Shown piece by piece: positions 5,821-58,031 of a stretch of 64,000 nucleotides of DNA. Source of the stretch: Clostridia bacterium. Its GTDB lineage: Bacteria > Bacillota > Clostridia > Oscillospirales > QAMX01. Position 1 is the first letter of the stretch, and the number at the start of each line of letters is the position of its first letter. Location: assembly GCA_017532825.1 (NCBI GenBank), contig JAFXIT010000025.1:1-64000 (forward strand), read 5' to 3'. The translations under genes and the position numbers were made by a program. The notes beneath the pieces are model-generated. The model did no database searches. It had not been told where the DNA came from and saw nothing but the letters and a program-made list of their open reading frames with translations.

Positions 5821-6960
5821 TTACTCTGCAAACGAGGCGTTTACCGCCTTTTCGAAGTGGCGTGCAGAACGGTTGCCCGCTCCGCCGTCGTGGCCCGAAT
5901 TCTTCATAAACACCGCCGCAATGCGGTTCTCGGGGTCGACCCAATAGTGGGTGCCATAGGCCCCGCTCCAGCCGAAGGTACCCACCGCCAGGTAGCGGTA
6001 TTCCTCACTGACGATGACCCTCACGCCAAGTCCCCAGCGCTCTCTGCCGTTCATTATCTCGGTAGGCACGATGGGAGTTCCCATCGTCTTGACCAGCTCC
6101 TCGGGAAGGACCCGTCGGTTAATGCCCATGCCGCCGTTGAGAAGCATCCTTGCAAAGAGGGAATAGTCGTAAAGGGTGGACACAAGTCCCCCTCCGCCGA
6201 GGTAGTGGGTGCAGGGATACTCTCCAAATGAGCAGTCCTTTTCGGTGGAGAGGACGATGCTTTGTCCGTCCTTCTTTCCGTGCATATCTATCACCCTCCC
6301 CCACTGCTCGGGTGTGGGAATATAGGTGGTGTCGGTCATGCCGCAGGGCTCGAATATCTCGCTTTTGAGGTATTCGAGATGGTCTCTTCCCGTGAGCTTT
6401 TCGCATATCAGCACCGCAACGTCAAAGGCGGCAAGGGGGCTGTAGCTTTGAGCCGTCCTCGGCTCAAAATCAAGGCCTGCACGCAGGAAAAAGTCTACCG
6501 TGGCACGGGGGGTGGTCTTATCCTCGGGCTTCATCATTGCATGCTTTTCCATCGAGCAGCCAAAGCCCGAGGTGTGACTTAAAAGATCGGAAACCATTAT
6601 CTCGTTTTTTGCCTTGCCCAGATCCTCGATCTTGCCGTCGACAAGCTTGGTCACGTGAAGGTCGGCAAACTCCGGCAGATATTTCGATACGGGGTCGGAA
6701 AGGCTCAAAAGGCCGTCCCGTACCAGCGTCAGCACCGCCACGGAGGTTATGGGCTTGGTCATCGAGGCAAGACGGAATATCGTCCTGTCGGTGACGGGCG
6801 TCCCCTTTTCAAGGGAGGACACCCCAAAGCATCGGTCAAAAAGCACCTCGCCGTCCTGACTAACGAAATAGGCCGAGCCGAAGACGTTGTTTTGCTCTAA
6901 GTCCTCATTTGCAGCGGCTTCTATGTTTTTTATCAAAAGTTCCCTATCAAGTCTTCTCAT
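5821..6960 (-). CDS. serine hydrolase, class-C beta-lactamase / esterase family
   Basis: A 379-residue protein with the beta-lactamase fold of penicillin-binding-protein-like esterases. The SxxK motif is SMTK in LASMTKPITS (~residue 67), a YSP Tyr motif lies at ~166, and the C-terminal region WSGAYGTHYWVDP takes the place of the KTG-like strand. There is no signal peptide, which argues against a periplasm-type resistance enzyme and for an intracellular esterase or peptidase acting on an acylated substrate. It starts 2 bases after the CE15-like gene with GGGAGGACCTGAAG upstream. The context suggests a role in processing a decorated glycan (inference). Confidence 0.82.
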   Translation of the reverse strand: MRRLDRELLIKNIEAAANEDLEQNNVFGSAYFVSQDGEVLFDRCFGVSSLEKGTPVTDRTIFRLASMTKPITSVAVLTLVRDGLLSLSDPVSKYLPEFADLHVTKLVDGKIEDLGKAKNEIMVSDLLSHTSGFGCSMEKHAMMKPEDKTTPRATVDFFLRAGLDFEPRTAQSYSPLAAFDVAVLICEKLTGRDHLEYLKSEIFEPCGMTDTTYIPTPEQWGRVIDMHGKKDGQSIVLSTEKDCSFGEYPCTHYLGGGGLVSTLYDYSLFARMLLNGGMGINRRVLPEELVKTMGTPIVPTEIMNGRERWGLGVRVIVSEEYRYLAVGTFGWSGAYGTHYWVDPENRIAAVFMKNSGHDGGAGNRSARHFEKAVNASFAE

Positions 6961-25876: not shown

Positions 25877-25906
25877 GTATATAAGATCCTCCGTGCGGGT
25901 AAACTG
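25877..25906 (+). promoter_or_regulatory. forespore (SigF-type) promoter of sigG, inside a terminator
   Basis: -35 GTATA (25877-25881), 15 bases, -10 GGGTAAACTG (25897-25906), fitting GywTA-n15-GgnrAnAnTw except at two -10 positions. The left arm of the terminator hairpin (25883-25893) forms most of the spacer. The predicted start, ~25912-25914, is past the left arm, so sigG mRNA from here keeps only the right arm with a free SD. Confidence 0.65.
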
Positions 25907-25939
25907 TCTTTAGTAAAACAGTCGCGGAGGATCTTTTTT
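25883..25939 (+). terminator. terminator/SD-sequestering hairpin before sigG
   Basis: A perfect 11-bp stem AAGATCCTCCG (25883-25893) / CGGAGGATCTT (25925-25935), with a 31-base loop that can form ACTGT/ACAGT inside. The U run TCTTTTTT abuts the sigG ATG. The only sigG SD, GGAGG (25926-25930), is within the right arm. It should terminate nucleoside hydrolase transcripts and hide the SD on read-through RNA. Confidence 0.8.
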
Positions 25940-26710
25940 ATGCAGCAAAAGGTAAGCATCTGCGGAGTCAACACCTCCGAGCTCGGCGTTCTCTCTGCCG
26001 AGCGCACCGACGCCCTGCTTGAATTGGCGGCAAACGGTGACGCTCGGGCTCGTGAGGAGCTTATTTCGGGCAATCTTAAGCTTGTTTTATCGGTAATACG
26101 CCGTTTTTCCAAACGGGGCGAGCCTGCCGACGATCTGTTCCAGGTGGGATGCATCGGCCTTATAAAGGCCATAGACAACTTCGACCGCTCGGTCGGTGTG
26201 AGGTTTTCGACCTACGCCGTACCGATGATAATAGGTGAGCTTCGGCGGTATCTGCGTGACAACAACTCCGTGCGTGTCAGCCGCTCCACCCGTGACGTGG
26301 CCTACAAGGCACTTGCTCTGCGTGAAAAGCTGCTTGCGGAAAGCGAAAAGGAGCCGTCGGTAGACGAGATCGCCAAGAGGATGGATATGAAGCGTGAGGA
26401 CGTCGTCTTTGCCCTGGACGCCATAAGCGATCCCATATCCCTTTTTGAGCCGGTCTATTCCGACGGGGGCGACACCGTATGCGTGATGGATCAGATAGGC
26501 GACGACCGATGCAGTGACGAGGACTGGACCGAGGGCATCGCCCTTGAGCAGGCAATCTCAAGGCTTTCGGAGCGTGAACGGCGGATACTGACCCTGCGGT
26601 TCTACCACGGCCGCACCCAGACCGAGGTCGCAAAGGAGGTCGGGATAAGCCAGGCGCAGATCTCGAGGCTCGAAAAGACCGCCATTGAGAAGATACGTCG
26701 GCAGATATAG
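25940..26710 (+). CDS. sigG: RNA polymerase sporulation sigma factor SigG
   Basis: A 256-residue protein with the SigG-specific N-terminus KVSICGVNTSELGVL (B. subtilis KVEICGVDTSKLPVL). Region 2 is LISGNLKLVLSVIRRFSKRGEPADDLFQVGCIGLIKAIDNFD...FSTYAVPMIIGELRRYLRDNN. Region 3 is VSRSTRDVAYKAL, and region 4 is LSERERRILTLRFYHGRTQTEVAKEVGISQAQISRLEKTAIEKI. It directs late forespore transcription. The start is the ATG 9 bases after GGAGG. The promoter and SD lie in an unusual terminator (see neighbours). yifB follows with its own promoter. Confidence 0.96.
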   Translation: MQQKVSICGVNTSELGVLSAERTDALLELAANGDARAREELISGNLKLVLSVIRRFSKRGEPADDLFQVGCIGLIKAIDNFDRSVGVRFSTYAVPMIIGELRRYLRDNNSVRVSRSTRDVAYKALALREKLLAESEKEPSVDEIAKRMDMKREDVVFALDAISDPISLFEPVYSDGGDTVCVMDQIGDDRCSDEDWTEGIALEQAISRLSERERRILTLRFYHGRTQTEVAKEVGISQAQISRLEKTAIEKIRRQI

Positions 26711-45530: not shown

Positions 45531-46196
45531 TTATCTGCAAAATACGTGGTTGCCGATGCGAAGGTATATCGGCTTTGAGAGCATATAGGCGTTGGTCGTC
45601 TTGGCGGGGTTATAGTAGTAGATACAGCCGCCTGTGGGGTCGGAGCCGTTATAGGCCTCTATTGCCGCACGGCGGCAGGAGTCGGGGATGGGTGTGGAAT
45701 AGAACTGTCCGTCGTCGATGGCCGAAAATGCCCCCCTTTGGTAGAGCACCCCCGAGAGGGTGTTCGGGAAGGATGGGTGCTTGATGCGGTTCATTATGAC
45801 CGCACCGATGGCGACCTGCCCGGTATAGGGCTCTCCCCTGCCCTCGGCGGCGATCATTCTTGCAAGCAGCTCGATGTTTTGGGAATAGGAGGAGGAGCTT
45901 GAGGAGGAGGGCTTATCAAGGCTTGAAAGACCGAGGGCGGCAAGGGTCTTGCTTCCGACGATGCCGTCGACGGCAAGGCCGTTTTTCCTCTGGAAATACT
46001 TTACCGCCGAGGTGGTCTTTGGCCCGAATATACCGTCGACACCGCCCGAGAGGTAGCCCCAGGAGCTAAGCTTTTGCTGTACCTTTCGCACGCTCTCACC
46101 CCTATCGCCCTCCCTGAGTGCGGCATCGGAGGCGATGGGACAAAGTGAGAACAAAAAGATTACCAGCAGAAAAAAGGCTGTAAACTTCGCACGCAT
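45531..46196 (-). CDS. sleB: spore cortex-lytic enzyme SleB
   Basis: A 221-residue protein. The signal peptide MRAKFTAFFLLVIFLFSLCPIASDA is followed by a peptidoglycan-binding domain (REGDRGESVRKVQQKLSSWGYLSGGVDGIFGPKTTSAVKYFQRKNGLAVDGIVG), a Ser linker, and a Hydrolase_2 lytic transglycosylase domain (LLARMIAAEGRGEPYTGQVAIGAVIMNRIKHPSFP, with the catalytic Glu in AEGRGEP). It is made in the forespore and acts on cortex at germination. The only SD, GAGG, is inside the hairpin that ends fucO transcription, 9 bases before the ATG. No ypeB is adjacent. Confidence 0.92.
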   Translation of the reverse strand: MRAKFTAFFLLVIFLFSLCPIASDAALREGDRGESVRKVQQKLSSWGYLSGGVDGIFGPKTTSAVKYFQRKNGLAVDGIVGSKTLAALGLSSLDKPSSSSSSSYSQNIELLARMIAAEGRGEPYTGQVAIGAVIMNRIKHPSFPNTLSGVLYQRGAFSAIDDGQFYSTPIPDSCRRAAIEAYNGSDPTGGCIYYYNPAKTTNAYMLSKPIYLRIGNHVFCR

Positions 46197-46232
46197 AAAA
46201 AATAACCTCAAATCGTTGGATTTGAGGTTATT
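46197..46232 (-). terminator. terminator of fucO / SD-sequestering hairpin before sleB
   Basis: A perfect 14-bp stem (AATAACCTCAAATC / GATTTGAGGTTATT) with a 4-base loop. The right arm and U run (TTATTTTTT) directly abut the sleB ATG and contain its SD GAGG (46209-46206). The design is the same as at sigG. Confidence 0.8.
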
Positions 46233-46257
46233 TTACCCTTATTTAGGGATATTATAC
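46228..46257 (-). promoter_or_regulatory. forespore-type promoter of sleB, overlapping the terminator
   Basis: On the minus strand GTATA (46257-46253), 15 bases, GGTAAAATAA (46237-46228), fitting the SigF/SigG-type GTATA-n15-GGnnAnA pattern. The predicted start, ~46221, lies near the 3' end of the left hairpin arm (46232-46219), so this transcript would lack the arm that hides the SD. Confidence 0.6.
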
Positions 46258-46270
46258 AGTTGCTTTGAGC

Positions 46271-47416
46271 TTACAGCAGGCTCTTGTAGAGCTCGGCGAT
46301 CTCCTCAACGCTGGTGTCACGGGGGTTACCGGGACGGCAGGCGTCGGCATAGGCGCTCTCGGAGAGGACCTGAACGTCCTCGGCCTTGACGATGGCCTTG
46401 AGGTCGGCGGGGATGCCGACGTCGGCGTTGAGCTGCTTGACGGCGGCTACTGCGGCGGCACGGTATTCCTCGACGGACATGCTGTCTACGCCCTCGACGC
46501 CCATTGCACGGGCGATCTCACGGTACTTCTCACCGGTGCAGGGAGCGTTGTACTCCATGACGGTGGGGAGGATGATGGCGTTGGCAACACCGTGGGGGGT
46601 GTCGTAGAGTGCGCCCAGACCGTGGGCCATGCTGTGGACGATGCCCAGGCCGACGTTGGAGAAGCCCTGGCCTGCGACGTACTGTGCAAGGGCCATGCCC
46701 TCACGGCCTTCCTTCTCACCCGCGACAGAGGCACGGAGGTTCTTGGCGATGAGGCGGATGGACTCGAGGTGGAACATATCGGTCATTTCCCAAGCACCCT
46801 TGGTGATGTAGCCCTCGATGGCGTGGGTCAGAGCGTCCATACCGGTGGCGGCGGTGAGGCCCTTGGGCATGGTGGCCATCATGTCGGGGTCGATAACGGC
46901 GATCTCGGGGATGTCGTTGGTGTCGACGCAGACGAACTTGCGCTTCTTTTCGACGTCGGTGATGACGTAGTTGATGGTGACCTCGGCGGCAGTGCCGGCG
47001 GTGGTGGGTACGGCGATGGTGAAGACGGCGTGGTTCTTGGTGGGGGCAACGCCTTCAAGGCTTCTGACGTCGGCAAACTCGGGGTTGTTGATGATGATGC
47101 CGATGGCCTTGGCGGTGTCGATGGAGGAGCCGCCGCCGATGGCTACGATGCAGTCTGCACCGCTGTTTTTGAAGGCCTCAACGCCGGTCTTGACGTTTTC
47201 GATGGTGGGGTTGGGCTTTATTTCGGAGTAGACCTCATAGTCGAACTTTCCGTCGAGAAGGTCGGTGACCTTCTTGGTGACGCCGAAGCGGATAAGGTCG
47301 GGGTCGGAGCAGACGAAGGCCTTTTTGTAGCCGCGGCCCAACAGCTCGGGAAGGATCTCGTTGATGGCGCCTGCGCCGTGGTAGGAAATGGTGTTAAGAA
47401 CGATTCTCTGTGCCAT
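46271..47416 (-). CDS. fucO: lactaldehyde reductase FucO (iron-dependent)
   Basis: A 381-residue type III alcohol dehydrogenase closely resembling E. coli FucO: NNPEFADVRSLEG, TTAGTAAEVTINYVITD, RKFVCVD, GMDALTHAIEGYITKGAW, GQGFSNVGLGIVHSMAH and TPHGVANAI. Iron ligands Asp and His (DALTH) and the later HSMAH and TPHG His are all present, as is the NAD motif GGGSSID. It reduces L-lactaldehyde to 1,2-propanediol at the end of fucose or rhamnose breakdown. No other fucose gene is in the window. It ends at the sleB hairpin. Confidence 0.95.
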   Translation of the reverse strand: MAQRIVLNTISYHGAGAINEILPELLGRGYKKAFVCSDPDLIRFGVTKKVTDLLDGKFDYEVYSEIKPNPTIENVKTGVEAFKNSGADCIVAIGGGSSIDTAKAIGIIINNPEFADVRSLEGVAPTKNHAVFTIAVPTTAGTAAEVTINYVITDVEKKRKFVCVDTNDIPEIAVIDPDMMATMPKGLTAATGMDALTHAIEGYITKGAWEMTDMFHLESIRLIAKNLRASVAGEKEGREGMALAQYVAGQGFSNVGLGIVHSMAHGLGALYDTPHGVANAIILPTVMEYNAPCTGEKYREIARAMGVEGVDSMSVEEYRAAAVAAVKQLNADVGIPADLKAIVKAEDVQVLSESAYADACRPGNPRDTSVEEIAELYKSLL

Positions 47417-57248: not shown

Positions 57249-57278
57249 GTAATATACTCCTTCCTCCGTACATAGTCT
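57249..57278 (+). promoter_or_regulatory. candidate mother-cell (SigE-type) promoter of sigK
   Basis: GTAATATA, 14 bases, CATAGTCT, similar to the SigE pattern and to the spoIIID candidate (same spacing and CATAGT core). The ATG is at 57312. Confidence 0.45.
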
Positions 57279-57311
57279 ATTTTACAGATAACGGTGCAAG
57301 GAGGACGGAGT

Positions 57312-58031
57312 ATGTCTGTGCTTTCCCTTTTACTTCGGATATTCCTTTTTCCCCTCAAGCTCTCCTGCGAGAGCTCCTTTCCCAAGGCGCTCTCGGCCGC
57401 ACGGGAGCGGGAGCTGCTTTCAAGGACGGCCGAGGGCGACCTATCGGCGCGAAACGAGCTCATCGAGCACAACCTGCGGCTTGTGGTACATATTATAAAG
57501 AAGTACTACGCAGGAAGCGACGAGCGTGAGGACCTCATCTCCATAGGTGTCATCGGCCTTATCAAGGCCATCAACAGCTTTGACGGGCGGAAGAACACCC
57601 GTCTTGCGACCTATGCGGCAAGGTGTGTTGAAAATGAGATATTTATGTACTTTCGAGGGCTCAAGCGGCGGAAGAACGAGGTCTCGCTGTCCGACCCCAT
57701 CGAGTCTGACGACGAGGGCGGCAACCTGGAGCTGATGGACATACTCAGCTACGACGAGGATATGCTGGAAAACGTCCTGCAGGGCGACAGGGTGCGGCTG
57801 GTACGCAGGGCCATCTCGGAGGCGCTTGACCCCCGTGAACGGGAGATAATCACCCTCCGCTACGCCCTTCGCGGGGGTGCGGCACTTCCACAAAGAGAGG
57901 TGGCTTCAAGGCTGGGCATCTCCCGAAGCTACGTTTCACGTATCGAAAAATCGGCTTTGGAGCGGATAAGGGGATATATTTCGGGCAAAAATTTCGATAT
58001 ACCCCTTGACAAGCGCCCCTCGGGGGAGTAA
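57312..58031 (+). CDS. sigK: RNA polymerase sporulation sigma factor SigK (pro-form)
   Basis: A 239-residue protein with a hydrophobic pro-sequence (MSVLSLLLRIFLFPLKLS), normally removed by SpoIVFB. Then SSFPKALSAARERELL, the SigK region 2 (RNELIEHNLRLVVHIIKKYYAGSDEREDLISIGVIGLIKAINSFDGRKNTRLATYAARCVENEIFMYFR) and region 4 (LDPREREIITLRYALRGGAALPQREVASRLGISRSYVSRIEKSALERI). The gene is continuous: no skin-type insertion. GGAGGACGGAGT precedes the ATG. The promoter of the trpB T-box lies over its stop codon. Confidence 0.95.
   Translation: MSVLSLLLRIFLFPLKLSCESSFPKALSAARERELLSRTAEGDLSARNELIEHNLRLVVHIIKKYYAGSDEREDLISIGVIGLIKAINSFDGRKNTRLATYAARCVENEIFMYFRGLKRRKNEVSLSDPIESDDEGGNLELMDILSYDEDMLENVLQGDRVRLVRRAISEALDPREREIITLRYALRGGAALPQREVASRLGISRSYVSRIEKSALERIRGYISGKNFDIPLDKRPSGE

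Follow-up and report, generated by a model that had tools for sequence, protein, structure and literature searches.

The closest described systems to the sleB upstream region reported here come from phage T4 and Bacillus subtilis, and the available text of both sources shows that the logic of a hairpin acting only on long transcripts (here called a lock) is already known. In T4 gene e, which encodes lysozyme, and also in soc, 49 and I-TevI, a helix hides the Shine-Dalgarno (SD) sequence or the start codon in long early transcripts, and late promoters are located in the DNA encoding the 5′ strand of this helix, such that late transcripts lack the helix and the mRNA is free (available text of PMC3014915). 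For B. subtilis sigG (spoIIIG), a hairpin of 20 or more bp is proposed to block translation of read-through RNA from spoIIG, and it cannot form in the PsigG transcript; a separate small hairpin at the ribosome binding site (RBS) is less common in the Clostridia (available text of PMC5942855).

Several likenesses and differences emerge. First, the T4 gene e product is a wall-lytic enzyme, as is SleB, and its promoter is in the 5′ strand of the helix; however, the T4 promoters and programme are those of late phage expression rather than of bacterial spore sigma factors, and in the loci described here a U-run often extends to the start codon, apparently replacing the terminator of the upstream gene. 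Secondly, B. subtilis sigG shares a proposed read-through hairpin that is not formed in the transcript from its own promoter, but the accessible parts of PMC5942855 describe it for sigG only, whereas here it is also seen downstream of vegetative genes, at sleB, sigK, spoIIR and a pdaB-like gene, with covariation across species. A literature search, with most subscription papers beyond reach, returned no report of an extension to sleB, spoIIR, pdaB or sigK. Thirdly, intrinsic terminators have the same stem and following U-run after a co-directional gene, but at the loci described here the left arm or the loop also contains a promoter, and the next gene's SD is usually located in the right arm.

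Organization of the sleB upstream region

The window is a 64,000-nucleotide stretch (contig JAFXIT010000025.1, positions 1 to 64,000) of the Clostridia bacterium assembly GCA_017532825.1, a 1.8-Mb genome. The sleB gene lies 74 nt downstream of its co-directional neighbour, an Fe-alcohol dehydrogenase gene, and the features of the region are as follows, with promoter motifs called against sigma-F/G and sigma-E consensus sequences.

45531..46196, minus strand: sleB, spore cortex-lytic enzyme (TIGR02869, 262.6 bits, above cut-off)
46197..46202, minus strand: T-run abutting the sleB ATG (from sequence)
46199..46234, minus strand: sleB lock hairpin, a perfect stem of 16 bp
46206..46209, minus strand: sleB SD GAGG, within the right arm of the hairpin (from sequence)
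~46221 (tested range 46219..46224), minus strand: predicted sleB transcription start, placed solely from the -10 position
46228..46237, minus strand: GGTAAAATAA, -10-like, overlapping the left arm (from sequence)
46253..46257, minus strand: GTATA, -35-like (from sequence and the sigma-F/G consensus)
46271..47416, minus strand: Fe-alcohol dehydrogenase / lactaldehyde reductase gene (NF007911 and TIGR02638, both above cut-offs)

The hairpin is formed by a left arm, AAAATAACCTCAAATC (46234-46219), a CAAC loop (46218-46215) and a right arm, GATTTGAGGTTATTTT (46214-46199), and the ATG occupies 46196-46194. The original prediction described a 14-bp perfect stem at 46201-46232, a U-run touching the ATG, an SD in the right arm at the spacing found in sigG, and a GTATA-n15 motif running into the left arm, and all of these elements are present. 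The 14 bp are the inner part of the 16-bp stem; the T-run at 46202-46197 has four of its six T's paired within that stem; the distance to the ATG is 9 nt both from GAGG in sleB and from GGAGG in sigG; and GGTAAAATAA at 46237-46228 overlaps the arm from 46234. Against 3000 dinucleotide shuffles of the upstream side the hairpin scores z -4.5 (p 6.7e-4). The -35/-10 spacing of GTATA-n15-GGTAAAATAA fits a sigma-F/G-type promoter, and an alternative -10, GGGTAAAATA at 46238-46229, would have a spacer of 14 nt.

Compared to an intrinsic terminator, the stem has only 4 G-C pairs among its 16 bp and a partly paired U-run, and a terminator scan reports it on the plus strand only, because it assigns the T's to the stem when reading the minus strand. 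Given this A+T-richness, termination at the sleB stem in the window may be weak. An Rfam search gave three weak matches, every one under its gathering score.

The computed energy for opening the sleB SD is 15.6 kcal/mol in read-through RNA and 3.6–4.6 kcal/mol in the predicted own RNA. This computed occlusion in the long transcript matches the read-through locks typified by T4 gene e and B. subtilis sigG. The own-RNA values at this and other loci are nonzero because weak pairing is possible between the SD region and coding sequence. We put a probability of roughly 75% on the reading that the sleB promoter forms part of a read-through lock, a hairpin acting only on RNA arriving from upstream. 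RNA reading through from the dehydrogenase gene would carry both arms, fold, and bury the sleB SD, and the hairpin and U-run would probably also terminate this RNA right at the sleB start codon. RNA made by the forespore polymerase would begin inside the left arm and lack most of it, so that no lock forms and the SD is open. The analysis shows the layout, its statistical improbability, the covariation described below, and the association with a predicted promoter, a U-run and a close co-directional gene; the start sites, the sigma factors, the repression of translation and the termination are inferred. With the ribosome site hidden, and perhaps with transcription stopped, growing cells should not make the spore protein, and the lock may substitute for a separate terminator where the gap to an upstream growth gene is short.

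Proposed locks at other sporulation genes and in related genomes

Two further sporulation genes in the window, sigG and sigK, have comparable upstream regions.

25877..25906, plus strand: sigG promoter-like GTATA-n15-GGGTAAACTG (from sequence)
25883-25895, plus strand: sigG lock left arm, within the promoter spacer (z -3.5)
25923..25935, plus strand: sigG lock right arm, including the SD GGAGG (from sequence and helix scan)
25940..26710, plus strand: sigG (NF006071, above cut-off)
57250..57278, plus strand: sigK promoter-like TAATATA-n14-CATAGTCT, sigma-E type (from sequence and the sigma-E consensus)
57256-57267, plus strand: sigK lock left arm, ACTCCTTCCTCC, nearly wholly in the spacer (from sequence)
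57300..57311, plus strand: sigK lock right arm, GGAGGACGGAGT, containing the SD and abutting the ATG (11 of 12 positions paired)
57312..58031, plus strand: sigK (NF004471, above cut-off)

The left arm spans the -10 and the predicted start in sleB, and in sigG it fills the promoter spacer. Both locks stand out from 2000 dinucleotide shuffles (sigG, z -3.5, p 0.003; sigK, z -3.9, p 0.0025), and the SD opening energies are 14.2 kcal/mol for read-through and 5.1 kcal/mol for the predicted own RNA in sigG, and 13.2 and 5.7–6.7 kcal/mol in sigK; in both genes, RNA initiated at the embedded promoter would carry little or none of the left arm. The sigK lock (57250-57314) follows the same logic and was not part of the original prediction. 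The large-hairpin proposal for B. subtilis sigG reportedly goes back to Sun 1991 and Masuda 1988.

Elsewhere in the same genome, the strongest lock (z -7.2, the top match of the blind scan described below) precedes a gene for a pdaB-like spore deacetylase (L089:1002, contig C14), whose product scores 213 bits against TIGR02764, under the cut-off of 237. This lock (L089 950-1003) reads GTAATAAT-CGGCCTTCCGAAG-CATAGAAT, which is sigma-E-like; its left arm lies in the spacer, and a U-run reaches the ATG. A targeted look-up of spoIIR (L084 ~6713-6751, contig C9) found a 14-pair stem covering the SD and the GTG start (z -3.2, p 0.002), with GTTTA-n15-GGGCAAAGTC overlapping its left arm; no lock was found in the look-up of spoIVA, nor at sigE, which lies inside its operon. 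The lock is also present at sigma-E-type, mother-cell promoters (sigK, pdaB-like).

Relatives were identified by SleB, and those with names are mostly uncultured Oscillospiraceae and Clostridia. With a locus scored as locked at z<-3 (100 shuffles per locus), the order-level counts are 16/80 for sleB, 10/27 for sigG (all new loci), 7/30 for spoIIR, 4/15 for pdaB (15 of 22 loci, the other seven having starts that seemingly lie inside coding sequence) and 1/29 for sigK (29 of 30 fetched loci), compared to 1/30 in the recA control. The 64 sleB loci that fall short include L140, L148 and L169, which are counted as unlocked with script-assigned starts that are too far downstream. These figures support the lock logic and its recurrence in the lineage as originally proposed, but the accompanying idea of a general rule for forespore genes holds for a subset only, with 2/30 loci at spoIVA and none of 29 at gpr (from 30) reaching z<-3. 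The lock is common at sigG, spoIIR, pdaB and sleB and patchy at sigK; at spoIVA and gpr it is rare or absent. In the family to which the window belongs, p<0.05 is reached by 3/17 sleB loci (the 17 of 39 table rows above cut-off), 4/14 sigG loci (from 15, one partial locus being excluded) and 6/14 sigK loci, and by 0/15 loci of the sigE control; 30 of the 31 sigK and sigE rows had loci, and sigE L067 was excluded for having too little upstream DNA. In 15 relatives the SD opening energy averages 18.2 kcal/mol in read-through RNA and 3.9 kcal/mol in own RNA, and in the recA control the difference is 1.5 and is above 6 in 0/30. The sigG locks of L190 and L191 have arms about 60 nt apart with a second hairpin between them.

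Upstream genes, predicted embedded promoters and covariation

In 18 loci a tblastn search places ThrS upstream of sleB, co-directionally and within 220 nt. The 15 loci with a gap below 100 nt all have a promoter-embedded hairpin, and the three with gaps of 146–220 nt are L111 and L124, which have a separate thrS terminator (recognized by script in L111 and by eye in L124) and no lock, and L172, in which the lock is present despite the longer gap. Other locked sleB genes follow genes for asparaginase (L121), formate-THF ligase (L123) and DNA polymerase III delta (L158 and L161), which makes more than one origin of the lock probable. Among the 8 nt immediately before the sleB start, the fraction of T is 0.70 in locked loci versus 0.25 in the others.

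These observations bear on the simplest alternative, that the hairpin serves the upstream gene as an intrinsic terminator and nothing more, SD occlusion being a by-product of start-codon proximity. U-runs do follow the stem in locked sleB loci, and there are variants in which the promoter lies within a strong U-tailed hairpin and the SD comes only beyond the U-run, namely the one short-gap exception (L127 sleB) and the pdaB genes of L242, L243 and L250, with sigma-E-like promoters. However, some locks, including those of the window sigK and L114, have no U-run, and the SD core is within the stem at 14 of the 15 short-gap thrS-sleB loci, such that we consider the terminator-only explanation unlikely. 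The thrS contrast, the U-runs and the U-tailed variants favour a terminator role to which SD occlusion has been added in most sleB loci, and the contrast, the T fraction and the covariation described below support the proposal that an upstream terminator doubles as the lock.

Promoters in the relatives were predicted without the hairpins as input. In each of the 16 locked sleB loci the best match falls on the left arm, and the mean fraction of the left arm within the predicted promoter is 1.00 in these versus 0.48 in the 64 others (p 5e-6), and 0.98 versus 0.66 for locked and other sigG loci (p 0.017), these p values and those of the swap test being optimistic because the loci are mutually related. 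In the swap test, each SD region was paired with promoter spacers from other loci, using loci with a promoter score of at least 13.5 (59/80 for sleB and 38/40 for sigG). Own pairs average -14.3 kcal/mol versus -9.3 when swapped in sleB, beating all 58 swaps in 12/59 loci (p 3.8e-4, likewise optimistic), and -18.7 versus -12.5 kcal/mol in sigG, beating all swaps in 7/38 loci (p 2e-6, with the same bias). It is very improbable that the hairpin instead works in sleB's own mRNA, with transcription starting further upstream; although the sleB start is a predicted one, and a 5-bp RBS hairpin is described for B. subtilis sigG in the available text of PMC5942855, the position of the best promoter match speaks against it, and a lock of 14–16 kcal/mol in its own message would silence the gene.

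Covariation was evaluated in an alignment of 15 sleB loci, picked since their rows looked locked, which includes L140, L148 and L169 with corrected starts and also L126 (z -2.5). BLAST shows that 14 of the rows come from the 15 short-gap thrS loci; the remaining row is L126, for which it found no ThrS. Pairing is retained in 94.8% of 210 cells, a percentage that is inflated because of how the rows were picked, and changes on both sides are seen in 11 of the 14 stem pairs. Doubly changed cells number 29 versus 7.5 in shuffles, a count reached by 0/500 of them, and pairing falls to 44–57% when the partner is slid by 1–3 columns; these contrasts with slid and shuffled partners are less affected by the choice of rows. 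Loop length varies, and the arm sequences differ among species with pairing kept. On the sense strand there are 21 G-U cells versus 5 A-C or C-A cells (hand count), an excess that favours an RNA element of the sense strand over a DNA site.

Chance complementarity is consistent with the absence of the lock from most sleB relatives and with similar stems at some non-spore genes, but given the p value of the sleB hairpin alone, the sigG and sigK locks in the same window, and the covariation in other loci, it is even less credible than a hairpin in the own message. The least probable explanation is that the inverted repeat is the DNA operator of a repressor, which we set aside since, although the repeat overlaps the sleB -10, it has wobble pairs, a variable loop, and arms that differ by species yet pair, with no conserved motif.

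Returning to the read-through lock, we give even odds to a broader proposal, that in these Clostridia promoters for spore sigma factors arise repeatedly within the terminator of a preceding growth gene, with the strand of the spacer or -10 serving as the anti-SD arm. The promoter would thereby insulate itself and at the same time act as a translation lock absent from its own message, and would have arisen behind thrS and the genes for asparaginase, formate-THF ligase, DNA polymerase III delta and Fe-alcohol dehydrogenase, for both forespore and mother-cell genes. Sporulation relies on the exclusion of a small set of dangerous proteins (sigma-G, sigma-K, SpoIIR and the wall-lytic SleB) from growing cells, and compact genomes make read-through likely; the lock would explain the silence of tightly packed spore genes. 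A rule readable from DNA (a promoter strand complementary to the SD, with a U-run at the start) could aid in finding spore promoters in uncultured species, the lock would offer a transferable design for insulated promoters, and the single old case of B. subtilis sigG would become a testable class.

Start-abutting hairpins in a blind scan of the genome

The blind scan was restricted to called genes that have an SD and are preceded by 36 nt or more of non-coding DNA. RNAduplex over 110 nt of all genes proved too lenient where coding sequence is G+C-rich and was dropped in favour of a helix scan confined to non-coding upstream DNA. Across the window and 20 other stretches (364,647 bases), z<-3 is reached by 5/159 genes: the pdaB-like gene, sleB, sigK, sigG and ilvE. 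A second sample of 20 stretches (317,845 bases) gave 3/119, an RNase Y gene, an ORF without a family match, which lies over a terminator and is probably mis-called, and a solute-binding protein gene. The original expectation that such hairpins are commoner before spore than before vegetative genes is borne out overall, but 4/8 matches lie outside known spore genes, and in the second sample none of the three matches is a known spore gene; the enrichment is also partly ascertained, because three of the spore genes sit in the window where the feature was noticed. Exclusivity to spore genes was rejected, start-abutting hairpins being present at ilvE and rny as well.

At rny (RNase Y; L383 5309-5361), a non-spore gene, a start-abutting, terminator-like hairpin covers the SD and has CATAACAT in its loop. 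A MATE transporter gene (L081, upstream of 7828, minus strand) has a sigma-A-like promoter, TTGCAC-n17-TAAAAT, whose spacer is complementary to the SD region (z -2.6).
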